Part shown: one piece after another, positions 15,185-52,824 of the stretch
Position numbering within the stretch: position 1 is the stretch's first letter
Layout: each line of letters begins with the position of its first letter
DNA from: Alphaproteobacteria bacterium
GTDB taxonomy: Bacteria; Pseudomonadota; Alphaproteobacteria; Sphingomonadales; Emcibacteraceae
Length of the DNA stretch: 64,000 bases
Direction: 5' to 3'
Assembly (NCBI GenBank): GCA_030428615.1
Contig: JAUIDN010000015.1
Location: 1-64,000, forward strand
Position numbers and translations under genes: made by a program
Notes under the pieces: model-generated
What the model saw: only the letters and a program-made list of their open reading frames with translations
The model's database searches: none
What the model was told of the DNA's origin: nothing

Positions 15185-16015
15185 ATGGGCTTTTCAGTTA
15201 ATACAAATGCCAGCGCATTAAGTGCGCTACAAAATTTGAACAGTACAACCAAAAGTTTGGATGGTGTCCAGACAAGAATTAATACCGGTCTTGCAATTTC
15301 AAGCGCCAAGGATAACGCAGCTGTCTACTCTATCGCGCAGCAACTTAGAGCGGATCTCAGAGGGTATAATGCCGTTAAACAAAGCCTTGATCGTTCAATC
15401 AGTACCATTGACATTGCGTTGGCTGCGGCCGGTTCGATTTCAGATCTGCTAATTGAAATGAAGGAAAAAGCCGTTGCTGCTGCTGATGCCGGTCTTGGTG
15501 CGGACAGTAGAACCGCACTTGCACAGGACTTTGAAGCCCTTCGCGACCAGATCACAACAATTACCGCCAATGCCGAATTTAACGGCACAAATCTTATTGA
15601 TGGCGGCAGTGATGTTATCGTAGCGATCACCAGCCCGGATGCGGTACAAAAAATTACCATCAATCATGAATCGTTAACATTGGGCAGTTCAAATATTACA
15701 ATCACTGCTGGTCAGACGATCTCAACACTTGCAACGGCTGAATCTGCTGTCGTCGATGTTGAAACTTCGCTCGCATTCGTTAATGCCGTTCTCACACGAC
15801 TTGGTGCGGGTGGTAAAACCATGGAAGCGCAGCGAGTATTTGCAACAAAAATTTCCGATACGATTGAAGTAGGTATTGGTAATCTCGTTGACGCTGACCT
15901 CGCCCGAGAGAGCGCGCGACTGCAAGCCCTTCAGGTAAAACAGCAACTGGGCGTTCAGGCATTATCTATTGCCAACGCGGCTCCACAATCAATTCTGAAT
16001 CTCTTTGGTGGTTAA
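15185..16015 (+). CDS. Flagellin
   Basis: 'MGFSVNTNASALSALQNLNSTTKSLDGVQTRINTGLAISSAKDNAAVYSIAQQLRAD' and C-terminal 'DADLARESARLQALQVKQQLGVQALSIANAAPQSILNLFGG'. Confidence 0.96.
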   Translation: MGFSVNTNASALSALQNLNSTTKSLDGVQTRINTGLAISSAKDNAAVYSIAQQLRADLRGYNAVKQSLDRSISTIDIALAAAGSISDLLIEMKEKAVAAADAGLGADSRTALAQDFEALRDQITTITANAEFNGTNLIDGGSDVIVAITSPDAVQKITINHESLTLGSSNITITAGQTISTLATAESAVVDVETSLAFVNAVLTRLGAGGKTMEAQRVFATKISDTIEVGIGNLVDADLARESARLQALQVKQQLGVQALSIANAAPQSILNLFGG

Positions 16016-16107: not shown

Positions 16108-17127
16108 TTATATTTTTGTGAGCAAATCCTGAAAGCTTTCGTCATCAAGCCATTCGGTATTTTTGTCACTAGTATATTCAAACTCATCCTCAATAAGCCT
16201 CGCCCCCATTGCCTTATAGGTCTTGTCGTTCCAGTATGTAAACTGGGGCTTGATCACATAACGATCATCAAGCTCAACAGTCTGACGACCGTCATCTTTA
16301 GTGATCATAATTTCATGAAGTTTTTCACCTGGACGAATCCCGACTTCTTTCATAGGTAGGTCGGGCGCCAGGTTCCTTGCCATATCCGTAATTTTCATGC
16401 TCGGTATTTTGGGAATATAAATTTCGCCACCCTGCATCATTTTAAGGCTGCTGAGCACAAAATTAACACCCTGCTCAAGAGTGATCCAAAATCGTGTCAT
16501 CCTCATATCCGTAATTGGTAAATGATCCGTGCCCTGTTCCAGCAAATTTTTGAAAAAAGGAACCACCGAGCCGCGAGACCCCAAGACATTTCCGTAACGC
16601 ACAACGGAGCAACCAAAATCCTGCGCACCAGCCAGATTATTGGCCGCAACAAAGATTTTATCTGAAGCAAGTTTGGATGCACCATATAAATTAATCGGGC
16701 TTGCCGCCTTATCTGTTGATAATGCGACAACTTTTTTCACGCCGCTGGCGATTGATGCCGCTGCAACATTTTCCGCACCCAACACATTGGTTTTGATGCA
16801 CTCAAATGGATTATACTCCGCAATCGGCACATGTTTCAGAGCCGCCGCATGAACAACATAATCAACCCCTCTTAATGCCATCGTCAATCTTTTCTGATCA
16901 CGAACATCACCAATAAAAAATCTTAGGCAACCAAAATTAGGATGACCTCGAAACATCTGATCCATCTCATACTGCTTAAGTTCGTCGCGAGAAAATATAA
17001 TACAGCGTTTTAGTCTCACATCGTCGAGAAACTTCTTGGTGAGTTGCTTGCCAAAAGATCCCGTACCACCAGTAATCAGTACAGAGGCCCCATCCAGAAA
17101 TGACAGGTCGGCTTCAAAGTTTCTCAT
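16108..17127 (-). CDS. pseB: UDP-N-acetylglucosamine 4,6-dehydratase (inverting), PseB
   Basis: 'GASVLITGGTGSFGKQLTKKFL', 'HAAALKHVPIAEYNPFECIKTNVLGAENV', 'STDKAASPINLYGASKLASDKIF'. Confidence 0.93.
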   Translation of the reverse strand: MRNFEADLSFLDGASVLITGGTGSFGKQLTKKFLDDVRLKRCIIFSRDELKQYEMDQMFRGHPNFGCLRFFIGDVRDQKRLTMALRGVDYVVHAAALKHVPIAEYNPFECIKTNVLGAENVAAASIASGVKKVVALSTDKAASPINLYGASKLASDKIFVAANNLAGAQDFGCSVVRYGNVLGSRGSVVPFFKNLLEQGTDHLPITDMRMTRFWITLEQGVNFVLSSLKMMQGGEIYIPKIPSMKITDMARNLAPDLPMKEVGIRPGEKLHEIMITKDDGRQTVELDDRYVIKPQFTYWNDKTYKAMGARLIEDEFEYTSDKNTEWLDDESFQDLLTKI

Positions 17128-17447: not shown

Positions 17448-18653
17448 TTGAACGAAAAAAATAATATTGAAACCGTGCTAATTATTGGAGCCGGGCCAGC
17501 GCAGATAAAAGGAATTAAAATTGCCAAAAAGTTTGGTTTCTATACGGTAGCTGTTGATGGCGACCCAAATGCGGAAGGTTTATCAATTGCCGATAAAGGT
17601 ATCCACGCGGACATCACCCAACATAGTGAAATTATTAAAATTGCTCGTCAAACAAACGCCAAAGCCGCAATCAGTGTCTCAAGCGAAATCTGTTTACCTA
17701 CTGTAGCAGCCGTAAACAAAGCGATAGGTTTTGACGGTCTTACGCCAGATCAGGTATTAGCCGCGACTGATAAATCAATTATGCGGAAGGCATTCCTAAA
17801 ATCTGGAATTCCTGGCCCTGATTTTGTGGTCGCTTCAAAGCACGATAACCCTTTAACAAAAACCCAATCATTAAAATTCCCTGTTGTTGTAAAACCGGTC
17901 GATTCATCGGGTTCAAAGGGGGTTTCTTGCGTCGAAACCCCGGAAGGAATAAAAAATAGTGTAGCTAATGCACTACGGCATTCTAATAGTGGAAAAGTCA
18001 TCATCGAAGAATTTATGGCCGGCGCGGAAATTGCCGTTGATGGATTTATTGTAAATGGTACATTTGTTGTGCTATCTTTTTCAGATAAAACACGCACTCC
18101 AGCTCCCTATTTTCTTGATACATCAGTTATTTTTCCCAGCAATCAACCCACACCCGTGTTAAATAAAGCTAAACAAATTATTTCAAAAGCAGTTTCAGCA
18201 CTTACACTTGACAATACGCCAATCCATGCTGAATTAATAGTTGGCTCGAATGGAGAAGTAAATATTGTCGAGTTAGCCGCTAGGGGGCCAGGATTTAATG
18301 TTTACACCGAAATGATACCATATGCTACCGGCATCGACCCCGTGAAACTGCAATTTAAACAAATTAAAGGGGATAAGATAGATATAACTCCTCCTCTAAA
18401 ATATAAAGGCGCGTGTATCAAATTTTTCAGTGGACATAGCGGTATATTGAAATCCATAGAAGGTTTAGATAAAGCACGAGAGATCGCAAATATTTATGAT
18501 TTAAAAATTTACGTCAAGCCGGGTGATAAGATAAACGACCTGACTTGTGGAGCTGACCGGATTGGGCATGTAATCGCGTTTGCTGAAAGTCGGGATGAAG
18601 CCGTTTCCGCAGCAAATTTTGCTGATAAATTAATTAATTTCGAGATAGTTTGA
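17448..18653 (+). CDS. ATP-grasp domain carboxylate-amine ligase-like protein
   Basis: 'FPVVVKPVDSSGSKGVSCVETPEGI...VIIEEFMAGAEIAVDGFIVNG...HAELIVGSNGEVNIVELAARGPGF'; TTG start. Confidence 0.8.
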   Translation: MNEKNNIETVLIIGAGPAQIKGIKIAKKFGFYTVAVDGDPNAEGLSIADKGIHADITQHSEIIKIARQTNAKAAISVSSEICLPTVAAVNKAIGFDGLTPDQVLAATDKSIMRKAFLKSGIPGPDFVVASKHDNPLTKTQSLKFPVVVKPVDSSGSKGVSCVETPEGIKNSVANALRHSNSGKVIIEEFMAGAEIAVDGFIVNGTFVVLSFSDKTRTPAPYFLDTSVIFPSNQPTPVLNKAKQIISKAVSALTLDNTPIHAELIVGSNGEVNIVELAARGPGFNVYTEMIPYATGIDPVKLQFKQIKGDKIDITPPLKYKGACIKFFSGHSGILKSIEGLDKAREIANIYDLKIYVKPGDKINDLTCGADRIGHVIAFAESRDEAVSAANFADKLINFEIV

Positions 18654-18654
18654 A

Positions 18655-19623
18655 ATGGATAAAATCATAAAAAATCAAGATGTTATAAAATTGGCTGTCA
18701 CCGTTGATACGGATAGTGATTATTATTTTGGAAATTTGAGTAATCAAAAAAATGCATATGACAAAACAATCCTTGGATGGGAAGGTCTTGATTTGGGAAT
18801 GCCTTTGTTAATAGAGCAAATAGAGAAAATCAGTCGGGAGTTCGATATTCATATACCAATTACCTGGTTTGTTCGCTGTGATGGTCAAATTAAATCACAA
18901 TACGGCAATCATGCGTATTTACTGGCCAAGTATGATAAATGGTGGTCTGACAGACTTAAGGCTGGTGATGATATACAATGGCACACGCATCTATATAAAA
19001 AATATAACGGAAATTGGATTCAGGAAACAAACACTGAATGTTTGAAGAAAGATTTAACAGATAGTCAGCATGCATATGAAAAATTGGGTTATCGTTTTAG
19101 TTTTGTTCGGTTTGGTGAATCATATTGTACAAATCAGCTTCTGGATATTATAGAGAAACTTGGCATTAAAGCAGGTTCTTCTGCGATGCCTGGCCGCTAC
19201 AGAGTGGATAAAGAAAAAAATATTGACTGGCGCAATACACCCAACGTCCCTTATCACCCGTCTATTGAAAATTACAAGGTTCCCGGAAAACCCGAACGAA
19301 ATTTTATAGAATTTCCTATGAATACAGTAGAAACTCAAGTTTCATACGACAAGGATCCAATTGCAAGATATGTCAATCTTTCGTTTCATAAAAATGTTAT
19401 AGATGATGGGATAAGGACTTTTTTTTCGCAGCATAATACACTCATAAGTATCACACATCCTTTTGAGATCGTTGATAAATTTTTTACGGACTCAGACGAA
19501 ACAACACACCCCCTCCTATCATTTAATCCGGAAACAGTAAGTAAGAACTTAAGGAATATTATACATATCGCACAGGAAATGGGTAAATCGCTGCAATTTG
19601 TGAAAATGGAGGAATTACTTTAA
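18655..19623 (+). CDS. Polysaccharide-deacetylase-like (CE4/NodB-fold) protein
   Basis: 'VTVDTDSDYYFGN', 'ITWFVRCDGQI', 'GDDIQWHTHLY', 'ISITHPFEIVDKF' resemble CE4 motif spacing. Confidence 0.6.
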   Translation: MDKIIKNQDVIKLAVTVDTDSDYYFGNLSNQKNAYDKTILGWEGLDLGMPLLIEQIEKISREFDIHIPITWFVRCDGQIKSQYGNHAYLLAKYDKWWSDRLKAGDDIQWHTHLYKKYNGNWIQETNTECLKKDLTDSQHAYEKLGYRFSFVRFGESYCTNQLLDIIEKLGIKAGSSAMPGRYRVDKEKNIDWRNTPNVPYHPSIENYKVPGKPERNFIEFPMNTVETQVSYDKDPIARYVNLSFHKNVIDDGIRTFFSQHNTLISITHPFEIVDKFFTDSDETTHPLLSFNPETVSKNLRNIIHIAQEMGKSLQFVKMEELL

Positions 19624-19636
19624 CAAAGTAGGAATT

Positions 19637-20755
19637 ATGGCAGACATAAAACTCGCTGAAAAAGAATTATCAAATTATTTCGGGCGCCAACATGCCATTT
19701 TATGCGGGCGGGCTGCGACCGCGTTATGGGCTATTTTTTCTTGCCTATCCCCAGAACGGAGTAAGGTAATTGTACCTGCCACTTTGTGCTTATCACCAAT
19801 TTTTAGTGTTCTTTATGCAGGAAAAACACCTGTATTTTGCGATGTTTCGAAAACAGGAAATTTGGATATTTGTAAGGTGCAGGAAATATTAGAAAGTGAC
19901 GAAGAAGTAGGTGCCGTTTTGGCAGTTCACCTCTATGGAATTCCAATAGACATCGACAGATTAGGCCAAATCTGCTCGAATTATAATGCTTTACTTGTGG
20001 AAGATGTATGCCAAGCCATGGGAGGAAAAGATGAAACCGGAAAGCTGTTAGGATCAAAAGGTCAGGTATCTGTTTTTTCGTTCGGCCATACCAAGATACT
20101 TGAGTTGGGAAACGGAGGAGCTGTCCTAACTGACGATGCAGACATTGCTGAAAATGTAAAAAAGCAATTGTTCAAAGTAAAAGAGGAAGACCCCGGATCA
20201 TTATCATGTACTTACAGCAACCTGTTTTATCCAATCTGGAACGCCGGGCGGACAGATCCTCAATTTTATAGGTTTTTTCATATGTTCCCGGAAATATTTA
20301 AACCACTATATTTTAAAAATATATCGGAGGAACTACCTAATAAATTATTAAAAAATTTACCCCTCCTTGAAAATATAGTTAATCAGCGGAATAATACTGC
20401 TGAAATATATAAAAAACATCTGTGCGATGTCTCTATGATACGCACACTATCGAAAGTCAGTTCAGGAGTTGTATGGCGATATACATTTACAGTACCCGAA
20501 AACATAAGAGACGGATTGGTAAAAATGATCAGAGATAATGGTTTTGATGCCTCCACCTGGTACCCATGTGTTGTTGATTGGTTTTCTTCATCTAAAGCAC
20601 CTAAAACGGCCAGAAGTGACTTTCCAACCGCACTGAAGTTGGAAAATGAAATCGTAAACCTTTGGGTCACTCCTGACTATCACGCCGACCGGATAGAAAA
20701 ATTAACTAATTTCATTCAGGACCATCTTGCAAACAATTCAACACAAAGGATATGA
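19637..20755 (+). CDS. DegT/DnrJ/EryC1/StrS-family aminotransferase-like protein
   Basis: 'VIVPATLCLSPIFSVLYAGKTPVFCDVS', 'LLVEDVCQAMGG', 'VSVFSFGHTKILELGNGGAVLTDD' (putative PLP Lys). Confidence 0.78.
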   Translation: MADIKLAEKELSNYFGRQHAILCGRAATALWAIFSCLSPERSKVIVPATLCLSPIFSVLYAGKTPVFCDVSKTGNLDICKVQEILESDEEVGAVLAVHLYGIPIDIDRLGQICSNYNALLVEDVCQAMGGKDETGKLLGSKGQVSVFSFGHTKILELGNGGAVLTDDADIAENVKKQLFKVKEEDPGSLSCTYSNLFYPIWNAGRTDPQFYRFFHMFPEIFKPLYFKNISEELPNKLLKNLPLLENIVNQRNNTAEIYKKHLCDVSMIRTLSKVSSGVVWRYTFTVPENIRDGLVKMIRDNGFDASTWYPCVVDWFSSSKAPKTARSDFPTALKLENEIVNLWVTPDYHADRIEKLTNFIQDHLANNSTQRI

Positions 20756-22692
20756 CCATGAGTAAAATATCAATACTGGATTGCACTGTTCGGGATGGCA
20801 GCTATGTAATTAACTATCAGTTTAGTGCTGAAGATTGTTTTGTTATCTCAAGGGCTCTTTCATCCTCTGGTATCGAGTTAATTGAGGTGGGTCATGGTCT
20901 GGGCGTGGGTGCCCAAAAAAAAGGTCTCGGCAAGGCAAGGGAATCAGATTCTACTTACATCAAATCCGCAGTGGAGGCCGTATCAGGGCAAAGTAAAATT
21001 GGCGTTTTCTATATTCCCGGGATCGCAGAGATCGAATCCATTAAAGAGTGTGTGGATGATGGCCTGGACTTCATCAGAATTGGGATCAATAGTGATGAAT
21101 TTAATAAAGCCGAAGAAGCAATAGAGCAGTCCAAAAAGTTTGGATTGAACGTTTCATGTAACCTTATGAAAAGCTACATGGTTCCTCCCGAAGAATTTGC
21201 AAGAAATTGTGGTTTTATTGAGCAAATGGGTGCTGACACTGTGTGCATAGTCGATAGCGCTGGTGGAATGACGCCTAATCAAGTATCTGAGTACGTGAGA
21301 TCAACTAAAGAAAAGGTTAGAATAGGAATAGGTTTTCACGGTCATAACAATATGCGGCTCGCGGAAGCAAATTGCTTGGCAGCAGTTGAAGCAGGTGCTA
21401 CCGTAATCGACGCAACATTGAGGGGGATGGGTAGAAGCGCGGGTAACCCGGCAACAGAAATTATAGCCAATCTTTTTGCCCGTGAAGGATATGATCTGGG
21501 CAATATCGATACACGACAGTTAATGATAATCGCCGAAGAAATTGTCGCGCCCCTTTTGCCAATAGATAAAGGCCTTCGGATTGAAGAACTAGCTTCAGGA
21601 TTGACATATTTTCATTCGGGCTTTCAGAGTATTGTCACGCAAGCAAGTAAAGTAGAAAACGTATCCTGTTTCGACACAATCCTGACCTTAGGTAAAGAAG
21701 GCGGCTCCCACGTCACCAAAGACTCTGCTGCTGAAGCAGCAAAAAAAGCAACGGCCAAAAACAGGAAAAAGAGTACGGTTAGAAAATCATCCACAGACGG
21801 AAGAAACTGGAAAACAAGGCAGCCCGAAAACATTCCTGATTTGTTAAAGGCACTAAATGAAACGGCATCTAAAACAGAAACAACACCTATATTAACAGTT
21901 TCGCGATCTCGGACGTCAAAATCAGAAGATATTTACGTCGCACCGATAAGAGTTGGTAGTGGATTCAATATTGGCCATATTGAAAGCGTTGACGAGGAAA
22001 GTGATCGAAAAATATTTCAGGAAATTTCAAATATTTCAATGCAGGTTTTCGTAGACAGACCCATCAAACTTCCCGAAGCTGCTGCGTATCAGGAAAATAT
22101 TATAATTTACGATGATATGCTATTGAGTTTACAAGCAATTGAAAACTTTATCCGCGTCAGGAGTGACATTCAAAGTTGTTATTTTCCTCATCCCGGAAGT
22201 TCAATTTCTTTGTTAATGAAAAGCCGACTAAGTCATATCACCAAATTGGAAGATGAAAACGCGGATCTGGGGATCGCCCTTTTTTGTGATCGTCGATTTA
22301 ATAGCGATGACCTTATGAAGTTGAAAATCGGTGGTACTTTGCTTTTAGCTGAAAATTCAGCCGTAGAACAAGATGTTTTAGAACACGCAAAAGCAAAAAA
22401 TATAGAACTCGTTCGGCTAGACCTTTCCGAATGCTTGATCTGGCTTGTTGCCAGCCTCGTGAATTCCAGAGAACGAATTAAATACAAAGCGGGCAGAATA
22501 CATAAAAATGGCCTAAACTTTGTTTCCGGTGGTGTATTAGGCGAAGAAGGTGACATCATACTTGATGATATTAATAACCCGAGAATGATTTATGGAATTG
22601 CGGACGGTATGGGTGCAATAAAACCCTTTAGGCAATTAGAAGAAAATAAGCAAACCATAGCGTTGAATTGGTTGCTGGAAAATATGCTATAA
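20752..22692 (+). CDS. HMGL/4-hydroxy-2-oxovalerate-aldolase-like TIM barrel fused to an uncharacterised C-terminal domain
   Basis: 'ISILDCTVRDGSYVINYQF' (DRE-TIM metal motif), 'GIGFHGHNNMRLAEANCLAAVEAGATVIDATLRGMGRSAGN'; about 300-residue C-terminal extension after a Lys/Ala-rich linker. Confidence 0.75.
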   Translation: MTMSKISILDCTVRDGSYVINYQFSAEDCFVISRALSSSGIELIEVGHGLGVGAQKKGLGKARESDSTYIKSAVEAVSGQSKIGVFYIPGIAEIESIKECVDDGLDFIRIGINSDEFNKAEEAIEQSKKFGLNVSCNLMKSYMVPPEEFARNCGFIEQMGADTVCIVDSAGGMTPNQVSEYVRSTKEKVRIGIGFHGHNNMRLAEANCLAAVEAGATVIDATLRGMGRSAGNPATEIIANLFAREGYDLGNIDTRQLMIIAEEIVAPLLPIDKGLRIEELASGLTYFHSGFQSIVTQASKVENVSCFDTILTLGKEGGSHVTKDSAAEAAKKATAKNRKKSTVRKSSTDGRNWKTRQPENIPDLLKALNETASKTETTPILTVSRSRTSKSEDIYVAPIRVGSGFNIGHIESVDEESDRKIFQEISNISMQVFVDRPIKLPEAAAYQENIIIYDDMLLSLQAIENFIRVRSDIQSCYFPHPGSSISLLMKSRLSHITKLEDENADLGIALFCDRRFNSDDLMKLKIGGTLLLAENSAVEQDVLEHAKAKNIELVRLDLSECLIWLVASLVNSRERIKYKAGRIHKNGLNFVSGGVLGEEGDIILDDINNPRMIYGIADGMGAIKPFRQLEENKQTIALNWLLENML

Positions 22693-22705
22693 AAGTATAT
22701 TATAT

Positions 22706-23407
22706 ATGGGAACCAACATGGTAAAAAAGCACAGTAAAGATATATGGGAGAATTTTTTTCAAGTCCGGGAAAAACAGGATCACCCTCTTTGGCCCTGTGA
22801 ACCTGTGATAAAAACAGTTTTTGGAAACTATCTGAAACGAAAAATTGAACTAAAAAATCAAGGCAATGTTCTTGATGTGGGTTGTGGTTTTGGCAACAAC
22901 CTCCTGCCGTTTATTTACCGGGGATGGAATGGCTATGGCACCGAGATTTCAGAAGAAATAACAACCCAAGTCTCCACGGAACTAAAACAAAGGGGCATTG
23001 ATGCCGATATTCGGGTTGGTCAAAATATGAACCTGCCATTTGATGACAGTATGTTTGACATCATACTTTCCATTTCTGTTCTCCATTATGAAAATTGTAG
23101 AGAAGATATTGATAAAGCGCTCGCGGAATATAAACGAGTATTAAATGATGGTGGTTCGATTATTATTTATACAACCGGACCAAAGCACGACATATTCCAA
23201 AAAGCGGAACAATTGGATAATAATCGCTACCGAGTTTCAAATTACGATTTTCGCAACGGTGAAGAATATTTTTATTTTGATAGTAAAAAATATTTAAAGT
23301 ATTTCATGGAACGCCATTTTGCTGACGTTGAAGTTGGCCAAATTACAGAAGGCCTGATGACAGCCCAAAATGATTTTCTCATTGCTGTTTGCCGAGAGCC
23401 ATTATAG
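22706..23407 (+). CDS. Class I SAM-dependent methyltransferase
   Basis: 'VLDVGCGFGNNLLPFIYRGWNGYGTEISEE', 'FDIILSISVLHY', 'EYKRVLNDGGSIIIYT'. An internal start at M5 is possible. Confidence 0.85.
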   Translation: MGTNMVKKHSKDIWENFFQVREKQDHPLWPCEPVIKTVFGNYLKRKIELKNQGNVLDVGCGFGNNLLPFIYRGWNGYGTEISEEITTQVSTELKQRGIDADIRVGQNMNLPFDDSMFDIILSISVLHYENCREDIDKALAEYKRVLNDGGSIIIYTTGPKHDIFQKAEQLDNNRYRVSNYDFRNGEEYFYFDSKKYLKYFMERHFADVEVGQITEGLMTAQNDFLIAVCREPL

Positions 23408-23432: not shown

Positions 23433-24140
23433 ATGGTGATGAAAATTGCAATTATACCGGCTAGGGGCGGCAGCAAAAGGATCCCTGGTAAAAATATCAA
23501 AAAATTTCGTGGTAAACCAATTATCTCTTATGCAATTGAAGCAGCAAAGGATACCGAACTTTTCGATAAAATAATTGTCTCAACTGATGATACCGAGATA
23601 GCTGAAATCAGTAAAAAATATGGAGCGGAAGCCCCGTTTATAAGGCCCGCCGAACTGTCTGACGACTTTACACCAATGCGACAGGTCCTTATTCATACTA
23701 TTGAGTCGCTGGAAAGTACCGGGGCTGATCTTAAATTTATTTGTACGCTGTTTGCAACAGCGCCCTTTGTCCAACCTGAAGATATCACAACGGGCTACAA
23801 CATGCTGCAAAAAACAGATAGCGCAGATTACGTACTAGGCGTAACTACATTCCCATTTCCGATCCAAAGGGCTCTTAAAATATCAACTCAAAAAACACTA
23901 AAAATGTTTGATCCAAATCATTTTTTAACCCGGTCACAGGATTTGGAAGAAGCATACCATGATGCGGGACAAATTTGCTGGGCACGAAAAGAGGCAATAT
24001 TGGGAAACAAGGACATATTTGATTGTAATTGCCTACCTTTAATTATTCCAAACTATCGTGTACAGGATATAGACACGCCGAATGACTGGAAACGCGCCGA
24101 AATAACTCACAGAGTTTTGGAAGAAATCAGTGGAGTTTAA
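23433..24140 (+). CDS. pseF: Pseudaminic acid cytidylyltransferase PseF
   Basis: 'MKIAIIPARGGSKRIPGKNIKKFRGKPIISYAI', 'RSQDLEEAYHDAGQICW'. Start at 23433 or 23439 favoured over the ORF-track start by the AGAGG Shine-Dalgarno. Confidence 0.9.
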   Translation: MVMKIAIIPARGGSKRIPGKNIKKFRGKPIISYAIEAAKDTELFDKIIVSTDDTEIAEISKKYGAEAPFIRPAELSDDFTPMRQVLIHTIESLESTGADLKFICTLFATAPFVQPEDITTGYNMLQKTDSADYVLGVTTFPFPIQRALKISTQKTLKMFDPNHFLTRSQDLEEAYHDAGQICWARKEAILGNKDIFDCNCLPLIIPNYRVQDIDTPNDWKRAEITHRVLEEISGV

Positions 24141-25201
24141 TCTGAAACTAAATCAGATGCCGTTATAGGACTGTGTTTCTTTATTTTTGTTTGCGCCCTT
24201 TTCCCAAATAGGTCTGAATAGTATCTAGCCGAAATTCCACCAGAATCTGAGGGCCCTCTAATACTTTTTATATTGTCTGGTGTAAGAATCTCCCCCTCCT
24301 GAATTTCAACAATCGACCAATATTGCCGTGTAAAAATATTCTTTTTCTGAAGGTCTGTTTCACCACCATACAAAACTCCGCCGATGGAATTCCATGCATC
24401 TTTAACATCGCGACAAAGTGACTTTAAATCATCTGGCTCCAGGGAAAAACTTGAATCCGGCCCCCCATCATCCCGTGAAAGTGTAATATGTTTTTCGATG
24501 ATGGAAGCACCACGAGCAACTGCAGCAACTGCTGTTGCTGTCCCGAGCGTATGATCAGAGAGGCCGCAAACAACATCAAAACTGTTTGCAATGTCATCCA
24601 TGGTTCTCAAATTACTATCGCAGGCCGGCGCCGGATAAGCACTCACACAATGAAGAACGGCGACGTCTCTACCACCATTTTCCTTTATAAAATCAAGCAC
24701 ATCTGCCACATCTGTTTTATATGCAGTCCCCGTTGAAAGGATAATCGGTTTTCGGGTCTCCACGACCCTCTTCACGAGCGCAAAATCAAGAATCTCATTT
24801 GACGCTATTTTATATGCAGGGCTTTTTAGGTTTTCTAATAAGTCAACTGCATCCTGATCGAAAGGAGAACTGAAAATTGTAATACCCGTTTTTCTGGCTT
24901 CCTCGTAGAGAACAGGAAACCATTCCCATGGAGTGTGTGCCTCCGTATATAATTGATACAGATTACGGCCCTTCCAAGTGCCTGCTTTCAACGTAAATTC
25001 TTCCCGATCTGTGTTAATCGTCAAGCTATCCGCAGTGTATGTTTGAAGCTTTACGGCATCAGCACCACATTCATTTGCAATACGAATTAGGTCTATCGCC
25101 CGGTTAATATCACCATTGTGGTTTCCAGACACTTCAGCAATAATATAGGGCGGCTTGGTAGGCCCAATTTCCCGTCCGGCAATATTTATAGTTTTAATCA
25201 C
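24137..25201 (-). CDS. pseI: Pseudaminic acid synthase PseI (NeuB family)
   Basis: 'IIAEVSGNHNGDINRAIDLIRIANECGADAVKLQTYTADSLTI', 'FSSPFDQDAVDLLE', C-terminal SAF-like domain. Confidence 0.92.
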   Translation of the reverse strand: MIKTINIAGREIGPTKPPYIIAEVSGNHNGDINRAIDLIRIANECGADAVKLQTYTADSLTINTDREEFTLKAGTWKGRNLYQLYTEAHTPWEWFPVLYEEARKTGITIFSSPFDQDAVDLLENLKSPAYKIASNEILDFALVKRVVETRKPIILSTGTAYKTDVADVLDFIKENGGRDVAVLHCVSAYPAPACDSNLRTMDDIANSFDVVCGLSDHTLGTATAVAAVARGASIIEKHITLSRDDGGPDSSFSLEPDDLKSLCRDVKDAWNSIGGVLYGGETDLQKKNIFTRQYWSIVEIQEGEILTPDNIKSIRGPSDSGGISARYYSDLFGKRAQTKIKKHSPITASDLVSD

Positions 25202-26255
25202 TGTCTAAAATCCTAAGAATTTCATTTATTATTCTTGCCGCCCCTTTACCATCAACTTTTTTTTGGCCGATACGAGACATTCGCGTTCTTAATTCTTTGT
25301 TATCTTTTAATTCACTAACGGATGTCCGCCAATCCTTTTTACAGATATCCTTATAATACCCAAGGTATATAGACGATCCCATCGATGCAAATATTTTGCT
25401 CGACTTTATGTGCTCTTTATAAATCGAAGTAAATATTGTTGGCAGTCCCATTGCGGCAAATTCATAACGTGACAAGCTCGATGCTCCAATTACAATATCC
25501 GCCCATCCGTACTGTTCAACCATAGTTTCTTGCGGGCCAATTATCTCAAAAGCGCTGCTGCTCTTTTTCGCTATTTTCTTTGCCTTACCAATCAAGCCGT
25601 CAGAAAAAAATGGCCCTAGGACCACTCTTATATTTAAATTCAGATCATCTTCCGAAAATGCTTCCATTACATTTGTCGTAATGCCCTGTGGGTCTGAGCC
25701 ACCAAAAGTTAAAAGAAGATTTTCAGCTTTATTTTTTATTGTTTTTTTGCTGACTTGATGGAATTGTTTATCCATAACAGCGTAGTCGACACCTCTGAGC
25801 CAATGATCTGTGTTTGGCTCAATATCCTGTTCGGCACCATAATAAGGCTGAATAAGTATCGGGATACGTGGACAATTGTCATCCCTGAATGCTTCATTGA
25901 ATAGCGCATCTATAAATACTGCTTTAATCCTTTGATCATCTAGGCGAGACAGATAATCATTTATTTCCTGCTCGCTTCCAAGTCTGCCTGCATGAAATAA
26001 ATCTAATAAAATGGTCATGCAGTCTTCTGGATAAAATGAAACCTCATCCTTCAGCATTAATTCACTTGGTAAGTCGAAAAATTCAAATCCGGCATCTGTT
26101 ACCAGCTGGCAGGCTTTTTCATTTCCTTCCTCGATAAGAAAACAAGCAATATTCCCCGTATTGCGCAATTGATCGGCCAAAAGAATGCACCGCCTTATAT
26201 GTCCCATTCCATACGCTTCATTAATTTCGGGACGGAAATATATCTTCATCAGCAA
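25194..26255 (-). CDS. pseG: UDP-2,4-diacetamido-2,4,6-trideoxy-beta-L-altropyranose hydrolase-like, PseG
   Basis: 'YFRPEINEAYGMGHIRRCILLADQL', 'LLTFGGSDPQGITTNVMEAF', 'WADIVIGASSLSRYEFAAMGLPTIF'; overlaps pseI start. Confidence 0.85.
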   Translation of the reverse strand: MLMKIYFRPEINEAYGMGHIRRCILLADQLRNTGNIACFLIEEGNEKACQLVTDAGFEFFDLPSELMLKDEVSFYPEDCMTILLDLFHAGRLGSEQEINDYLSRLDDQRIKAVFIDALFNEAFRDDNCPRIPILIQPYYGAEQDIEPNTDHWLRGVDYAVMDKQFHQVSKKTIKNKAENLLLTFGGSDPQGITTNVMEAFSEDDLNLNIRVVLGPFFSDGLIGKAKKIAKKSSSAFEIIGPQETMVEQYGWADIVIGASSLSRYEFAAMGLPTIFTSIYKEHIKSSKIFASMGSSIYLGYYKDICKKDWRTSVSELKDNKELRTRMSRIGQKKVDGKGAARIINEILRILDSD

Positions 26256-26368: not shown

Positions 26369-27415
26369 ATGGCCGATATGAAAGAGCTATTTGAAGCTCG
26401 AGAAGATATGGAAAAGCAAAATGAGCTATATCGCCCGACATCTTTCTGGGCAGATGCTTCCAGTAAAATGGTAGCGGATTTCAGTGAAAACGGAATTGAA
26501 AATTTTCGCTCATTAGAAATGCCCCTAAATTTCTTCGTTCCTACATACGGAGCACCAGGAAACGGTTTTTCGCCGGAGTTATTAGAAGCTATATTTAAAT
26601 CCCACCAACCAGAAAATACAAAACAATCATTAGCACTAAGTCGGTTTTTCAGTGGATATGAAACTGCACTCGCTGATTATAGGGTCCTTCTTGGTTCCGA
26701 TGAGCAATCGCATAAACCTTACCTTCACACATTTTCGGAAAGTAAGGTGGGTAATCCAATTGAACATTTCGAATTCGAAAACAGATTTTTCAGCCGGTCT
26801 GCGCTGAACTATCTCTTGGGACTTTGCTTTCTTAAGAGACATATTGGACCGGAAACGCCGAAAACAGTGTTGGAAGTTGGCGGTGGCTTTGGCACGTTAG
26901 GCGAAATACTTGCCCAAAGTGGCGTCCCGGGCATCAAATATATAGACATCGATATCCCGCCCACTAGTTTCGCCGCGCAATATTATCTCACTGAGGTTTT
27001 AGGAAAAGAAAACGTTACTACCTACAACAAAACAAAGGAACTGGATGAAATCAATATCAGCACCCTACCTTCAATGTCGGTTCTATGTTCGTGGCAAATT
27101 GAAAAATTAAGAGGACAAGTAGATTTATTTGTGAATTTTATTTCATTTCAGGAAATGGAGCCGGTTGTCGTTGAAAACTATTTCAAACATGTTCGTCGCC
27201 TCAATACAAAATGGATACTTCTGCGCAATATGCGTGAAGGCAAACAGAAAAAAACATCAAAATCAAATGTCGGTGTTGAAAATCCTATTTTAGCTAAAGA
27301 CTATGCCAGAATGCTTCCAGGATATTCACTTATCGACTCTAACGTTTTTCCATATGGATATCGGACAGTAGATAATTTTCACTCTGAGCTTTATTTGTTT
27401 AAACGGCGGTCCTGA
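26369..27415 (+). CDS. Putative sugar O-methyltransferase
   Basis: 'TVLEVGGGFGTLGEILAQSGVPGIKYIDIDIPP', 'DLFVNFISFQEMEPVVVENYF'; resembles the putative sugar O-methyltransferase family in glycan loci. Confidence 0.75.
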   Translation: MADMKELFEAREDMEKQNELYRPTSFWADASSKMVADFSENGIENFRSLEMPLNFFVPTYGAPGNGFSPELLEAIFKSHQPENTKQSLALSRFFSGYETALADYRVLLGSDEQSHKPYLHTFSESKVGNPIEHFEFENRFFSRSALNYLLGLCFLKRHIGPETPKTVLEVGGGFGTLGEILAQSGVPGIKYIDIDIPPTSFAAQYYLTEVLGKENVTTYNKTKELDEINISTLPSMSVLCSWQIEKLRGQVDLFVNFISFQEMEPVVVENYFKHVRRLNTKWILLRNMREGKQKKTSKSNVGVENPILAKDYARMLPGYSLIDSNVFPYGYRTVDNFHSELYLFKRRS

Positions 27416-27424
27416 TAGTATCGT

Positions 27425-28246
27425 TTAATTAAATAGAGAAAGAATTGATTGAGGCGCCTGGTTTGCAATCGAAAGCGCCTGTAGCCCCAGTTGCTGTTTA
27501 ACCTGCAAGGCTTGCAGGTTTGCGGCCTCGCGAGCCAGATCCGCATCAACAAGATTACCGATACCGGTTTCTATGGTATCAGATATTTTTTGCGCGAAAC
27601 TCAATGCTGTTTCAAGCCTCTTTGCGCCAGCCCCAAGTTTGGCGAGAACCCCTTCAAGGGTGCTAATCATGCCATCCACCGCGGCTAAAGCGGCATTTGC
27701 ATTCGCTTCTGTATCAATGGAAAAGAGCAGATCCAGAAAAGCCGCTTGAGTATCAATGGTTGAAGCTGAAATTGTGATTGCTGAGGAACTGTCACCATCA
27801 GGGCTTGTAATGGCGACAATGTCATCTGCTTTCAACGTATTTCGGCCATTGAATTCAGCACTTTCAACAATAGTGGATGTCTGTTGGGCAAGCTGGCTGA
27901 ACTCCAGATCAAGTATAGCGCGCGATGCATCATCATTTCCGGCATCTTTGGCGACTATTGTTATTTCTTTCATTCGAATAAGGAGATCAGATACGGCCTC
28001 CGCACCCGCGATGGCGACATCAGTGGCACCAATTGCGCGGTTCAAGCTACCCTTCACGGCAGTATATCCCGCTAATTCGGCGCGTTGTTTTTGGGCAATG
28101 GAAAAAATGGCAGCGTTATCTTTTGCGCCAGAAACTTTCAAACCTGTGTTAATGCGGGTTTGTGCCACATTTAATGAACGGTTTGTTTTATTCAGGTTTT
28201 GTAACGCGACAAGTGCACCAGCATTTGTGTTTACCGAAAAGTCCAC
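27425..28246 (-). CDS. Flagellin
   Basis: 'VDFSVNTNAGALVALQNLNKTNRSLNVAQTRINTGLKVSGAKDNAAIFSIAQ', C-terminal 'LQALQVKQQLGLQALSIANQAPQSILSLFN'; GTG start. Confidence 0.95.
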   Translation of the reverse strand: MDFSVNTNAGALVALQNLNKTNRSLNVAQTRINTGLKVSGAKDNAAIFSIAQKQRAELAGYTAVKGSLNRAIGATDVAIAGAEAVSDLLIRMKEITIVAKDAGNDDASRAILDLEFSQLAQQTSTIVESAEFNGRNTLKADDIVAITSPDGDSSSAITISASTIDTQAAFLDLLFSIDTEANANAALAAVDGMISTLEGVLAKLGAGAKRLETALSFAQKISDTIETGIGNLVDADLAREAANLQALQVKQQLGLQALSIANQAPQSILSLFN

Positions 28247-28879: not shown

Positions 28880-29692
28880 CTATCGGAAGAGTGAGAGCAC
28901 TGTTCCAGGTGCCTGGTTCGCAATAGACAAGGCTTGCAAGCCGAGCTGCTGTTTCACCTGCAACGACTGTAAGTTCGCACTTTCACGAGCCAGATCGGCA
29001 TCCACAAGGTTACCAATACCAACTTCGATAGCGTCAGATAGCTTCTCAATGAATGATCCAACAATCTCAACACGTTTCGCACCAGCACCTAGTGCCGATA
29101 GTGAAGTATTAACTGTTGCAATCGCTGTATCAATAGCTGCTAGCTCAGATGAAGCACCAGCTGCTGACGTAATAGCGCCGGCGATTCCAAGTGAGCCCGC
29201 ACTCAAGCTTTGAGCAGCGATGGAAATATTACTTGAAGCATCAGAATTAACAATCGCAACAACATCATCTGTGCCGTTAAGCGAATTTCTACCGTTAAAT
29301 TCAGCGTTACTTACGATTGTATCAATCTGAGACACGAGCTGCTGATAATCGTTATCAAGCAATGCGCGTGAAGCAGTATCATTACCTGCATCTTTCGCTG
29401 CAACAGCTTTCTCTTTTAACTGGATCAGAAGGTCAGAAACAGCTTCTGCACCCGCAATCGCAACATCAAGAGCACCAGTCGCACGGTCGAGACTTGCTTT
29501 AACAGCACTTAGGCCACCAAGCTCTGCACGCTGCTTTTGCGCAATCGCAAAGATAGACGCGTCGTCCTTAGCACCGGACACTTTGAGACCAGTATTAATA
29601 CGACCTTGAACTACATTTAATGATGCATTTGTTTTATTCAGATTTTGCAGTGCAACGAGAGCACCAGCATTAGTATTTACGGAAAAACCCAT
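28880..29692 (-). CDS. Flagellin
   Basis: 'MGFSVNTNAGALVALQNLNKTNASLNVVQGRINTGLKVSGAKDDASIFAIAQ', C-terminal 'SIANQAPGTVLSLFR'. Confidence 0.95.
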   Translation of the reverse strand: MGFSVNTNAGALVALQNLNKTNASLNVVQGRINTGLKVSGAKDDASIFAIAQKQRAELGGLSAVKASLDRATGALDVAIAGAEAVSDLLIQLKEKAVAAKDAGNDTASRALLDNDYQQLVSQIDTIVSNAEFNGRNSLNGTDDVVAIVNSDASSNISIAAQSLSAGSLGIAGAITSAAGASSELAAIDTAIATVNTSLSALGAGAKRVEIVGSFIEKLSDAIEVGIGNLVDADLARESANLQSLQVKQQLGLQALSIANQAPGTVLSLFR

Positions 29693-30939: not shown

Positions 30940-32610
30940 ATGACTGATCAAAATACAAACTTAATACCGCCACCAAAAAATAAAACCCAATTTGTAAAAC
31001 TGTTGAAAAAAGGACAATCATTATACAAAAACCAAGATTATACCGAAGCTCTAAGGTACCTTACCTCCGCATGGCAGTATGATGATTCAGATCACAATCT
31101 TCTAACCATAGTAGCAGACTGCCTATTTAAAAAAGGCAATCAGACCGCAGCCTTGAATTTGATGGCTCACGCTTTAAAAAGAAGCCCCAAAGATGCAAAT
31201 ATATGTTCAGTTCTTGGCAACGCAGCGCTAAAGATGGAATTTTTTGATTTAGCGGCCAAATTCCATCAAAAATACATCGAGCTTAGGCCAAATGAAGCCA
31301 TTGGTTACAGCAACTATGCGTCAGCATTACGCGAGGATGGTAAAATAGATGAAGCAATCGCTTATTTACAAGATATAATCCCAATTTTCCCGGACAACGA
31401 TCTTTTATGGAACACACTTGCCTCAACAGTGGCATTTCGGGACGGTCCCGGCGAAGCAATCGTATTTTATGAACAATGCCTGCAACTCAATCCTCAGAAC
31501 GTACAAGCACTGAACAACATAGCACCCGCTTATGTCTCAGTGGGACGGATAGAAGATGCTGAAAATGCAGCTAACGAGGCTATACGATTAAGCCCAAATC
31601 TGAAAGATCCAAAATTATTTTTATCTGGCTTAAAGTTGAAAGCAAAAAAACTAAAAGAAGGCTGGGAATATTATCAATTACGTCCTGGGCCAAAGGAGAT
31701 CAAAGCCACCTTGCAACACAACAAAGTGCCATATTGGCATGGCGAAGATTTGACCGGCAAAAAAATCCTTGTATACGGTGAGCAGGGAATTGGTGACGAA
31801 ATATTATTTACTTGGCTTTACGATGAACTCGCAAATGTCGCAGAGGAAGTTGCTTTTTCGTGCGAAGAACGCTTGGTTGACCTCTTTCAATCAAGTTTTC
31901 CATATGCAAAAGTTGGGGCTACATACTACGTCGTAAATACGGAACTCGATTACAGAATATTCATGACGCATGGCCTCAATATCAGTGATTATGATTATCA
32001 ATGTCTAGCCGGGGACCTCCCGCTGCATTTTTGGGATGATTACGATAAAATCCAACCGAACTCAGAGCCTATTCTCAAACCAAACAAACAAGAAATTAAG
32101 AAATGGAAAAAAAGACTGGAAACATTGCCCCAAAAAATTTCCGTAGGCATATCATGGCGAAGTGGTAACAGGAAAGCAAAACGCTCCCGCAACTATGCCG
32201 GATTGCAAGAATGGGAACCAATAATGAGAGATAAAAAAATTAATTTTATCAATATCCAGTATGGTGATTGTGCTGAAGAACTAGCTGAATTCAAGGCAAA
32301 AACCGGTATTACAATCCATAACTTTAAAGATTTAGATCTTAAGGATGATTTTGCTGGAACCACCGCGATGATGAAATCGTTAGATTTAGTAATTGGTCCT
32401 TCGTCTTCACCAATTCATCAAGCCGCCTTCGCTGGAACAAAGTCCTGGTTTTTTTCTAATGGTCACGCATGGTGGTCTTTTGGAGAAGAAATTCCTATTT
32501 GGCGTCAGAACGCAAGAATTTTTGCAAAAAATGAAAATGAAAATTGGTCTGATTTCATGATAGAAAAAGCACCGGAATTTGAGAAATGGTATCAAAAAAA
32601 GCTCAAATAG
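30940..32610 (+). CDS. TPR-domain glycosyltransferase-like protein (FlmG-like flagellin glycosyltransferase candidate)
   Basis: N-terminal TPRs ('GQSLYKNQDYTEALRYL', 'NYASALREDGKIDEAI') plus C-terminal GT-B-like domain ('ILVYGEQGIGDEILFTWLYDELA', 'VGISWRSGNRKAKRSRNY', 'DLVIGPSSSPIHQAAFAGTKSWFF'). Confidence 0.8.
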   Translation: MTDQNTNLIPPPKNKTQFVKLLKKGQSLYKNQDYTEALRYLTSAWQYDDSDHNLLTIVADCLFKKGNQTAALNLMAHALKRSPKDANICSVLGNAALKMEFFDLAAKFHQKYIELRPNEAIGYSNYASALREDGKIDEAIAYLQDIIPIFPDNDLLWNTLASTVAFRDGPGEAIVFYEQCLQLNPQNVQALNNIAPAYVSVGRIEDAENAANEAIRLSPNLKDPKLFLSGLKLKAKKLKEGWEYYQLRPGPKEIKATLQHNKVPYWHGEDLTGKKILVYGEQGIGDEILFTWLYDELANVAEEVAFSCEERLVDLFQSSFPYAKVGATYYVVNTELDYRIFMTHGLNISDYDYQCLAGDLPLHFWDDYDKIQPNSEPILKPNKQEIKKWKKRLETLPQKISVGISWRSGNRKAKRSRNYAGLQEWEPIMRDKKINFINIQYGDCAEELAEFKAKTGITIHNFKDLDLKDDFAGTTAMMKSLDLVIGPSSSPIHQAAFAGTKSWFFSNGHAWWSFGEEIPIWRQNARIFAKNENENWSDFMIEKAPEFEKWYQKKLK

Positions 32611-44271: not shown

Positions 44272-45540
44272 TCACCCCGTTATATCATTTAACGCGTTTG
44301 CAAGTTTATCAGCATCTTCACGCGAATTATAAAGTGCGGGACTTACGCGAATACCGGCACCATTACTGATACCACCATTTGCCACGGTAAATATTCCATA
44401 CTTATCCGTCAGAAGTTTCACCAAATCCCTGTTTTCCTGATTACTGGTTTTGCCTTTAATTCTAAACGACGTGATCGCAGCATACATGCGTTCATCCTGC
44501 GGCGTCAGGATTTCAATATTTTCATTATCAATTACTTTATCCACCCATTGGTTTCTTAATGCGCGAAAACGTTTTTCGATATTTTTAATCCCGATATTTT
44601 CGCCAAAATCAAGTGCATCCGGAATGGTAAGTACAGATGCGAAGTTCATAGTGCCGGTATGTACCCGGGTACGGACATTGTCGTTATCCGGCGCCGCTTC
44701 ACCGCGAAGCGGATCAATATCAAGAACTCTATTTTTTCGAATATATAACATGCCTACCCCAATCGGCACGCCTATCCATTTATGTAGATTAAATCCGGCA
44801 AAATCCACATCAAGATCCTGAAAATCGAAGTCAAACTGTCCCCAGGAATGCGCCGCATCAAGAATGACATCAACACCACGGGACTTGGCCATTTTCACCA
44901 CTTCCTTCACAGGAGTAATCAACCCCGTACGATTGCTAACATGTGTCATGAGCATCATTTTACATTTGGGATGATCATCGAGCGCCTTTTCATATGCCGC
45001 TATGACATTTTCATATGATGCGGGCTCGGGAATGGCAATTGCAACAACATTGACGCCGCGATATGTTTTCAGATAACGCATTTCCGATTGCATACTGCCA
45101 TAATCAAGGTCCGCGTATATCACCGTATCGCCCGGTTCAAGTTTGTTATAGCCGTTGATAAGACTTTGCAGAGCTTCTGTCGCGTTGCGCGTCAGGACAA
45201 TTTCGTCGTTTCCTACGCCAAGCTTACGGGCAAGCCGATCAATAATTTTGTCATAATCCTGCCGGTAATGACGCCTCGCGTAGTATGAACTATTCTGGTT
45301 CACAAAATGGGTGTTTTGAATATAAGCCTGTGTAACCGGAATGGACATAATCCCCCAGTAGCCCGCCTCAAGGTTCGTAATTTCATCTGTCACATCATAC
45401 TGATTTCTTACGATCTGCCAAAAATTTTCATCATCCGCAGCACGTGACTGCTGCGCGAGACTTATCATTGGTGTACCAACCATCGACGCTGTTGCAAGCG
45501 CTGCTGTAGTTGTGAGAAACTGGCGTCTATCCATTTTCAT
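44272..45540 (-). CDS. Class V PLP-dependent aminotransferase-like protein with Tat-type signal
   Basis: 'MDRRQFLTTTAALATASMVGTPMISLAQQ'; 'VDFAGFNLHKWIGVPIGVGMLYIRK' (PLP Lys region). Confidence 0.85.
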   Translation of the reverse strand: MKMDRRQFLTTTAALATASMVGTPMISLAQQSRAADDENFWQIVRNQYDVTDEITNLEAGYWGIMSIPVTQAYIQNTHFVNQNSSYYARRHYRQDYDKIIDRLARKLGVGNDEIVLTRNATEALQSLINGYNKLEPGDTVIYADLDYGSMQSEMRYLKTYRGVNVVAIAIPEPASYENVIAAYEKALDDHPKCKMMLMTHVSNRTGLITPVKEVVKMAKSRGVDVILDAAHSWGQFDFDFQDLDVDFAGFNLHKWIGVPIGVGMLYIRKNRVLDIDPLRGEAAPDNDNVRTRVHTGTMNFASVLTIPDALDFGENIGIKNIEKRFRALRNQWVDKVIDNENIEILTPQDERMYAAITSFRIKGKTSNQENRDLVKLLTDKYGIFTVANGGISNGAGIRVSPALYNSREDADKLANALNDITG

Positions 45541-46820
45541 TATCCCATTTTGTTTACGATATCTTTTATTGCTGCTGCTAATGCATCCATATCTTCCAAG
45601 GAGCTATACAGTCCCGGTGATACCCGTATACCATTTAACTGCGGGATCGCCGCTGTATTAATAGCATAATCGGCCAAGAGCTGCCTGCCAAGCGCAGCAG
45701 CGTCTTTGTGCGCGTTAATCCGAAATGACGTGAGGCCGCAATGCATGCGTGGGTCTTCCGGGCTCAATATATCAACCCGATCATCATCAATAAATTCTTT
45801 CACCCAACGATGGCGAAGCGCCCTGAATCGTTTATCAATCGCTTTAATGCCAATGGCATCGACAAAATTCAATGCATCCCTAACAGACATCACCGCCGCC
45901 AGATTCATCGTGCCTGTCTGCACACGGTTATTAATATCATCATTTCCGGGCGGTCCCTTACTGCTTTTCGTATCAATATCCAACATCCGGTTTTTCTTGA
46001 TATACATAATCCCGACACCGAGGGGAGCACCAATCCATTTATGCAGATTAAAGCCAGCGAAATCGACGCCCTGATCAACAAAATCAAAGTCCATCTGTCC
46101 CCAGGAGTGAGCCATATCAACAATAACATCAGCACCATGGTTGCGCGCCATTGCCGATATTTCCTTTACCGGAAGAACAACGCCCGTTCTGTTAGCCATA
46201 TGTGTCAGCAATATGAGTTTGGTTTTCGGGTTGTCCTTTAATGCCTGTTCAAAAAGGCCAATTGTATTTTCATAAGACGCCGGATCCGGCATCTTCAATT
46301 CAACGACATTCGCTTTTCTATGAACCTTAAGATGACGCATTTCCGCAGCCATGCTGTAATAGGCCGCGTCCGCGTAAAGTACCGTGTCACCCGGTTCAAT
46401 CTTGTTATATCCGCTTATCAGGAGCTGCATAGATTCCGTTGCTCCGCGGGTAAATACAACTTCATCACTTCTCACGCCGAGCTTTGCAGCGATCATTTCA
46501 AGTATTTCACCGCGTTCAACGTAAAAATTACGCGCACTTGGTATAGCCGCCTTGCCATGGCCCACATAAAAAGAGCTATAGGCATTAATAAATTCGGAAT
46601 GTTTTGCAAATGCTTCGCGCACGGGTTCGGACATAATTCCCCAGTGTCCAGCATTTAAATTAATGAATTCGTCTGTGACCTTATACTGCGCCATGATGGT
46701 TTTCCAGTATGCTTCACTGTCCTTATCCATTGACATCTGCGCATTCGCGGCCACGGTTTTTGCCGCAATCGACATGCCCGCCAGCGCCGCAGTCGTTTGC
46801 ATAAATTTTCTTCTATCCAT
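45540..46820 (-). CDS. Class V PLP-dependent aminotransferase-like protein with Tat-type signal (tandem paralogue)
   Basis: 'MDRRKFMQTTAALAGMSIAAKTVAANA'; 'VDFAGFNLHKWIGAPLGVGIMYIKK'; similar along its length to 44272-45540. Confidence 0.85.
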   Translation of the reverse strand: MDRRKFMQTTAALAGMSIAAKTVAANAQMSMDKDSEAYWKTIMAQYKVTDEFINLNAGHWGIMSEPVREAFAKHSEFINAYSSFYVGHGKAAIPSARNFYVERGEILEMIAAKLGVRSDEVVFTRGATESMQLLISGYNKIEPGDTVLYADAAYYSMAAEMRHLKVHRKANVVELKMPDPASYENTIGLFEQALKDNPKTKLILLTHMANRTGVVLPVKEISAMARNHGADVIVDMAHSWGQMDFDFVDQGVDFAGFNLHKWIGAPLGVGIMYIKKNRMLDIDTKSSKGPPGNDDINNRVQTGTMNLAAVMSVRDALNFVDAIGIKAIDKRFRALRHRWVKEFIDDDRVDILSPEDPRMHCGLTSFRINAHKDAAALGRQLLADYAINTAAIPQLNGIRVSPGLYSSLEDMDALAAAIKDIVNKMG

Positions 46821-52798: not shown

Positions 52799-52824
52799 TT
52801 CAGCTCCCTTTTTTTATTTTAATT

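Follow-up and report, generated by a model that had tools for sequence, protein, structure and literature searches.

The window analysed here is a 64,000-nucleotide stretch of DNA (positions 1 to 64,000 of contig JAUIDN010000015.1, assembly GCA_030428615.1) from an alphaproteobacterium of the family Emcibacteraceae. Within a flagellar region, five genes encoding an ATP-grasp ligase, a deacetylase-like protein, a DegT-family aminotransferase, an aldolase fusion and a methyltransferase all lie on the forward strand, separated by successive gaps of 1, 13, -4 and 13 nucleotides and followed after 25 nucleotides by pseF (Table 1). A sequence-only reading of the window had described these genes as a tightly packed, co-oriented cassette within a pseudaminic acid (Pse) island, and each was found at the position it gave. 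The pseF, pseB and pseI genes that it placed nearby all exceed their NCBIfam cut-offs, while the neighbouring pseG is a PseG-like gene that falls short of its own. The first four genes form a core that recurs in distant genomes, and we lean towards the view that this core is a tailoring cassette for nonulosonic acids (NulOs), whose acid would be coupled by the ATP-grasp enzyme at the PseH step to give a NulO with a non-acetyl group at N7.

Table 1. Genes of the cassette and of its surroundings in the window
Feature	Position	Strand	Basis or remark
ATP-grasp carboxylate-amine ligase, L-amino-acid-ligase-like, core gene 1	17448-18653	+	TTG start; PF13535 and PF18603
CE4/NodB-fold deacetylase-like hydrolase, core gene 2	18655-19623	+	Predicted fold
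DegT-family aminotransferase dependent on pyridoxal phosphate (PLP), core gene 3	19637-20755	+	PF01041
DmpG/HMGL-type aldolase fused to Rossmann-like domain, core gene 4	20752-22692	+	PF00682
Class I S-adenosylmethionine methyltransferase, accessory	22706-23407	+	PF08241 67.3 bits; Methyltransf_11/25
pseF, CMP-pseudaminic acid synthetase	23433-24140	+	TIGR03584 308 bits, cut-off 205.7
pseI, pseudaminic acid synthase	24137-25201	-	TIGR03586 426.5 bits, cut-off 340.25
Divergent pseG, UDP-sugar hydrolase	25194-26255	-	TIGR03590 109.4 bits, below cut-off 153.55
pseB, UDP-GlcNAc 4,6-dehydratase/5-epimerase	16108-17127	-	TIGR03589 517.6 bits, cut-off 407.75
NanM-family putative sugar O-methyltransferase	26369-27415	+	TIGR04371 270.1 bits, cut-off 44
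Flagellin	15185-16015	+	PF00669, PF00700
Flagellin paralogue	27425-28246	-	N and C termini as in the 15185-16015 flagellin
Flagellin paralogue	28880-29692	-	N and C termini as in the 15185-16015 flagellin
Tetratricopeptide repeat (TPR) protein, FlmG-like	30940-32610	+	TPR domains over residues ~20-220

Conservation of the four-gene core

Among 85,462 species genomes (GTDB representatives) covered by a DegT-based scan and its follow-up, the genes for the ATP-grasp ligase, deacetylase-like protein, DegT and aldolase were found in the same order and on the same strand in at least eight other loci, nine including the window; the scan called for two exact peptide patterns, and the count is a lower bound. 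These eight loci belong to five Alphaproteobacteria, WOR-1, one bacterium of the candidate phyla radiation (CPR) and one archaeon (Hadesarchaea). Seven came from the DegT scan itself (Afipia, Hadesarchaea, Maricaulis, WOR-1, an alphaproteobacterium, Uhrbacteria and Woodsholea), and in these the core genes overlap or are separated by only a few bases, save that two loci have a gap the size of a methyltransferase gene. The deacetylase gene of L051 was read straight from the DNA, the open reading frame (ORF) picker having taken the opposite strand. Pairwise divergences of the four core proteins across the seven loci are correlated (r 0.57-0.82, exact permutation p 0.0002-0.025), so the proteins travel together.

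The linkage was confirmed in a held-out locus, L179, which was found without the use of DegT. A profile of the deacetylase alone matched 3 of 89 genomes, two of them already known and the third, from the Woodsholea family, being that of L179, where the same four genes accompany PseB, PseI, PseG, PseC, an SpsF-like cytidylyltransferase and flagellins. The DegT gene of this locus (L179:10544-11634) is split by an apparent frameshift and appears as two tblastn pieces in different frames. A search of 385 Alphaproteobacteria with the C-terminal domain of the fusion and the deacetylase profile gave no match beyond the window genome itself. Searches of phages, plasmids and viral contigs with one protein at a time (the aldolase, the C-terminal domain of the fusion or the deacetylase) gave nothing useful; the best 20 of 326 plasmid records matching the fusion do so in the aldolase half only, none covering 80% of the query.

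NulO genes lie near the core in seven of the eight other loci, the Maricaulis locus L049 having only flagellins in the stretch examined, and flagellins adjoin the core in the window and in four other alphaproteobacterial loci. The cassette loci have no dedicated glycosyltransferase that is conserved alongside the core. Taken as a unit, the five-gene set stands for its first four members, which recur together, in the same order and mostly beside NulO genes, and not for the methyltransferase, which is an accessory. The latter is also found without the core or on the opposite strand, with a 41% identical copy in a Mariprofundus Pse locus that has no core and copies of 34-39% identity in alphaproteobacterial cassette loci. 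An unannotated protein of ~241 amino acids with no Pfam match adjoins the methyltransferase in L049, L051 and L053 (e.g. L053:13716-14444).

PseH and PseG in cassette loci

In standard Pse synthesis, PseH acetylates the 4-amine of the sugar. Measured against the canonical CMP-Pse5Ac7Ac pathway (PseB-C-H-G-I-F), the window has PseB, PseF and PseI and its genome has PseC elsewhere; it departs from that pathway in that PseH was not found, PseG is below cut-off and four extra core genes are present. The best PseH candidate of the window genome reached 40.2 of the required 93.1 bits and reads as a RimJ-like gene adjoining a gyrase/topoisomerase gene, and nine related genomes likewise yielded no PseH over the cut-off. 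Many alphaproteobacterial Pse loci (L139, L142, L143, L145, L148, L155, L163, L167 and others) encode a PseG-PseH fusion of ~460-515 amino acids, and PseH is therefore easily missed by the curated model. Since that model, TIGR03585, is insensitive in Alphaproteobacteria, a profile made from PseI-adjacent GNATs was used instead; an initial build containing a PseG-PseH fusion was set aside after it recovered PseG.

The profile was applied to the 40 top-scoring of 51 alphaproteobacterial PseI neighbourhoods that have no cassette; it found a PseH-type GNAT in 30 of them and in none of eight cassette loci (Fisher p 1.2e-4), or none of five when only the alphaproteobacterial cassette loci are counted (p 0.0025); these p values, like those for PseG below, are guides only, as relatedness is ignored and the comparison set was partly picked via PseG-PseH similarity. 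Neither the window nor the held-out L179 has a PseH recognized by the neighbourhood profile, and in L179 it is the only member of the Pse set that is missing. The enzyme that follows is also altered: PseG proteins beside the cassette score 42-112 bits, six of six below the cut-off, against 127-297 bits in 20 cassette-free loci, 19 of which lie above it (Mann-Whitney p 1.5e-4; p 5.6e-4 for the three alphaproteobacterial loci alone). PseB and PseI in the alphaproteobacterial cassette loci look ordinary.

Enzymes of the core

The ATP-grasp protein of the window has the domains of an L-amino acid ligase-like enzyme, matching PF13535 (72.8 bits) and PF18603 (LAL_C2; 68.8 bits), and its orthologues in seven cassette loci are 31-39% identical. 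Compared with the PDB, the family profile finds 4dim as its best match (E 1.6e-52) and the L-amino acid ligase 3vot at 3e-42.

The deacetylase-like protein has no Pfam or NCBIfam match, and its metal motif is HxH (W-H-x-H) and not the HxxxH of standard CE4/NodB enzymes. D18, D22, H110, H112 and H268 are invariant. A medium-confidence AlphaFold2 (AF2) model (pLDDT 68, pTM 0.74) has 3rxz as its best Foldseek match (E 9.8e-7), with 3qbu (H. pylori HP0310; 1.4e-6) and ArnD (8t0j; 4.9e-4) also found. The model supports a CE4/NodB fold, and the predicted fold backs the identity as a deacetylase that had been guessed from the letters.

The DegT protein matches PF01041 (150.6 bits) and has the features of a PLP aminotransferase, with its catalytic lysine (K153, in SFGHTKI) and cofactor aspartate (D123) invariant in 10 sequences. 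Judged by sequence it is not PseC, because the true PseC of the window genome stands alone on another contig (C2; G000:C2:1502-2641), outside the window, and scores 563.6 bits for TIGR03588 (cut-off 423.5); the window protein reaches 116.6 bits, over residues 5-176 only. In Mariprofundus sp. (L041, the same as L046) and a metagenome-assembled genome of Oscillospiraceae (L054), which have no cassette core in the sequence examined, relatives of the window DegT and of the methyltransferase adjoin WbqC-like genes, and one locus also has PseG and PseI. The DegT family may possibly have a second, simpler use of this kind. DegT matches in Halobaculum and Klebsiella were rejected as cassettes, their neighbours being Gfo/Idh/MocA genes instead.

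The fourth core protein consists of an aldolase domain (residues 1-~330) and a Rossmann-like domain (residues ~385-646). It matches PF00682 (120.5 bits) and the broader subfamily NF006049 (269.3 bits, cut-off 229), and at 239.3 bits it lies under the 286-bit equivalog cut-off of TIGR03217 (4-hydroxy-2-oxovalerate aldolase). Like DmpG/BphI (1nvm), it is a TIM-barrel HMGL-like aldolase that retains the conserved Arg-Asp and the His-x-His metal site. Unlike DmpG, in which the His after RDG- is catalytic, all cassette aldolases have Tyr at that position (RDGSY vs RDGSH, from alignment to 1nvm and 3dxi), and no acylating aldehyde dehydrogenase is found among the neighbouring genes. The Bacteroides aldolase 3dxi also has Tyr there (RDG-Y motif). 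An ordinary dmpG was rejected as the identity of the fusion, as genomes of the same genus and family show only separate, ~30% identical aldolases and the best 20 plasmid matches are confined to the aldolase half.

The alphaproteobacterial cassette aldolases stop at about 340-355 residues, whereas the window copy continues into the second domain; copies from Hadesarchaea and Uhrbacteria also have a second domain, and that of WOR-1 reaches the contig end. The C-terminal domain of the window fusion is common to L048, L052 and L050, and a Gly-rich, Rossmann-like stretch seen in L048 is degenerate in the window copy by reading of the alignment. Its AF2 model (pLDDT 62, pTM 0.46) has weak Foldseek matches to FolD and 2-hydroxyacid dehydrogenases (TM-score about 0.2-0.3), a hint of a dehydrogenase-like fold, and its profile has no match in the PDB. 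A named function for this domain was dropped because the structural matches were too weak.

Proposed pathway and alternatives

Conservation of the core across distant NulO clusters, together with the failure to find PseH and the divergence of PseG, points to an altered acyl group at N4/N7. With the enzyme before the acyl step present, the acyl enzyme missing and the next enzyme changed, an ATP-grasp ligase of amino-acid-ligase type would be the natural replacement for PseH, and its acid would be expected to come from the remaining core genes. The chemistry that we infer would begin with synthesis by the core of a small carboxylic acid, most likely through an initial aldol reaction between pyruvate and an aldehyde. 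PseB and PseC yield UDP-4-amino-4,6-dideoxy-L-AltNAc, and the ATP-grasp ligase would then form an amide between the new acid and the 4-amino group of this sugar, which PseH normally acetylates. The divergent PseG would remove UDP, PseI and PseF would complete the sugar, and a flagellin transferase would attach the resulting Pse with its non-acetyl N7 group to flagellin. The side group may in addition be modified by methyltransferases.

A non-standard N-acyl or aminoacyl NulO had already been suggested by the sequence-only reading, and that idea is strengthened by the conserved core, the missing PseH and the divergent PseG. The gain does not extend to its stepwise chemistry, in which the aldolase yields a hydroxy-oxo acid for amination by DegT and the deacetylase frees a sugar amine; these steps would be compatible with the enzyme families. 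The missing PseH, the distinction of DegT from PseC, the aldolase Tyr and the place of the methyltransferase outside the core had escaped it.

Several points weigh against coupling at the PseH step. The absence of PseH rests on a neighbourhood profile trained on Alphaproteobacteria, TIGR03585 recovers PseH from just 9 of the 51 alphaproteobacterial genomes that have PseI (E 1e-11), 10 of the 40 cassette-free neighbourhoods are likewise without it, a GNAT is present in the L048 and L052 regions, and an unrelated acetyltransferase elsewhere could perform the step. The cassette loci are few and partly related (L049/L051), and the need for both a DegT and a hydrolase is unaccounted for. Because the synthases of the archaeal and CPR loci have scores intermediate between those of PseI and NeuB, the parent sugar in those loci may not be Pse.

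The hydrolase is the centre of one alternative, which we consider rather unlikely, namely that the cassette acts on the finished sugar, with the CE4-like enzyme stripping an N-acetyl group from Pse or CMP-Pse, the ATP-grasp enzyme re-acylating the freed amine, and N4 acetylation left to an unrecognised acetyltransferase. A hydrolase of this kind is present at all the loci, although simple replacement of PseH would not call for one, and its CE4 fold with ArnD, a deformylase, among the matches would suit the task; however, no PseH-type gene was found in any cassette locus, and the divergent PseG suggests that the change is already present before PseG acts. It is very unlikely that the cassette serves another surface glycan (lipopolysaccharide, capsule or S-layer) and has flagellar neighbours by accident, as might be imagined from the RDG-Y aldolases known from Bacteroides (3dxi) and the legionaminic (Leg)-type cluster on another contig of the window genome, given how regularly the core stands beside NulO genes and flagellins.

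A more ambitious version of coupling at the PseH step is offered tentatively, and we doubt it more than we believe it. The cassette may be a mobile, cross-domain pathway in which the aldolase and DegT, with or without a fused reductase, make a new amino or polyhydroxy acid that the ATP-grasp ligase puts in place of acetyl on NulOs, both those of bacterial flagellins and those of a surface glycan in an archaeon; it would then define a new NulO class and the first known ATP-dependent PseH substitute with a dedicated acid supply. If coupling at the PseH step is true, the acyl group of pseudaminic-type sugars could be determined by a cassette that is self-contained, horizontally spread and common to Alphaproteobacteria, candidate phyla and an archaeon, and the chemistry of flagellar and surface NulOs would be wider. 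A genomic rule would also follow, by which failure to find PseH, a divergent PseG and the presence of an ATP-grasp enzyme plus aldolase predict organisms with non-acetyl NulOs.

Relation to known systems

ATP-grasp tailoring of flagellar sugars is already known, and by analogy the nearest precedent is sfmABCDE of Shewanella oneidensis, though with other enzymes. Mutants in these genes lose flagellin modification, and the species is without PseH and carries sfmE, which encodes an ATP-grasp protein (PMC3765264). The Shewanella flagellin glycan was read as a mono-N-acetyl NulO carrying an extra group of 236-264 Da, inferred to lack nitrogen and to range from C9H16O7 to C11H20O7 (0-2 further methyls) (PMC3765264). 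The two systems are alike in placing a NulO on flagellin, in keeping PseB and PseC with PseH absent, and in combining an ATP-grasp enzyme and a methyltransferase with enzymes for carbon-carbon bonds and redox chemistry (PMC3765264). They differ in that Shewanella has a thiamine pyrophosphate (TPP) enzyme and a short-chain dehydrogenase/reductase (SDR) where the cassette has an aldolase, DegT and a CE4-like hydrolase, and in that SfmA is a divergent NeuB, with no PseF, PseG or PseI orthologues reported (PMC3765264). Of the sfm set (NeuB, TPP enzyme, SDR, methyltransferase and ATP-grasp), neither a TPP enzyme nor an SDR was found in the cassette ORFs, whether in the window or at the other loci. 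An sfm-like set of SDR, split transketolase, methyltransferases and ATP-grasp stands beside pseB/C/F on a plasmid of Solidesulfovibrio carbinolicus (L045), and Aureibacter has an ATP-grasp gene between pseF and pseI.

In the type B flagellin locus of C. difficile (CDR20291_0244-0247), an ATP-grasp enzyme, an ornithine-cyclodeaminase/alanine dehydrogenase-like enzyme, a DegT and a FemAB protein serve to cap Fuc3N with a taurine-Ala/Gly amide (PMC5207246, PMC5207245). As in the cassette, a PF13535 ATP-grasp accompanies a DegT and a Rossmann-type enzyme, and the ATP-grasp mutant loses the amide-linked cap (PMC5207246, PMC5207245); the glycan, however, is not a NulO, a FemAB protein takes part, and there is no aldolase or CE4 enzyme. 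Flagellin NulOs with non-acetyl or amino-acid substituents are described as N-acetylglutamine- and acetamidino-Pse in Campylobacter and Leg5GluNMe7Ac in C. botulinum, for which the enzymes differ or are not reported. A flagellin glycan of Treponema denticola is reported to bear a 2-methoxy-4,5,6-trihydroxyhexanoyl group, and the present reading gives it no weight. No description of the cassette's enzyme combination was found in the partial literature searched.

Additional features of the window genome

The cassette surroundings are a flagellar region with NulO genes, in which FlaG, FlaF, FlbT and FlgA/H/I are also encoded. The TPR protein, which we take to resemble the flagellin glycosyltransferase FlmG, has ~32% identical stretches adjoining flagellins in Maricaulis L049 and L051. 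The Leg-type cluster lies on contig C11 of the window genome (G000, C11:760-5771; L015) and comprises a LegB-like dehydratase, a LegC-like DegT and NeuC-like, NeuB-like and PglD/NeuD-like genes, identities assigned by reading except for the DegT match. Two neighbouring class V aminotransferase-like proteins with Tat-like leaders are encoded at 44272-46841 of the window, and a similar one on contig C11. Three paralogous TPR-like proteins of ~310-330 amino acids, with signal peptides and a common DVPEGA motif, are encoded at 51812-53748 and 58470-59423.

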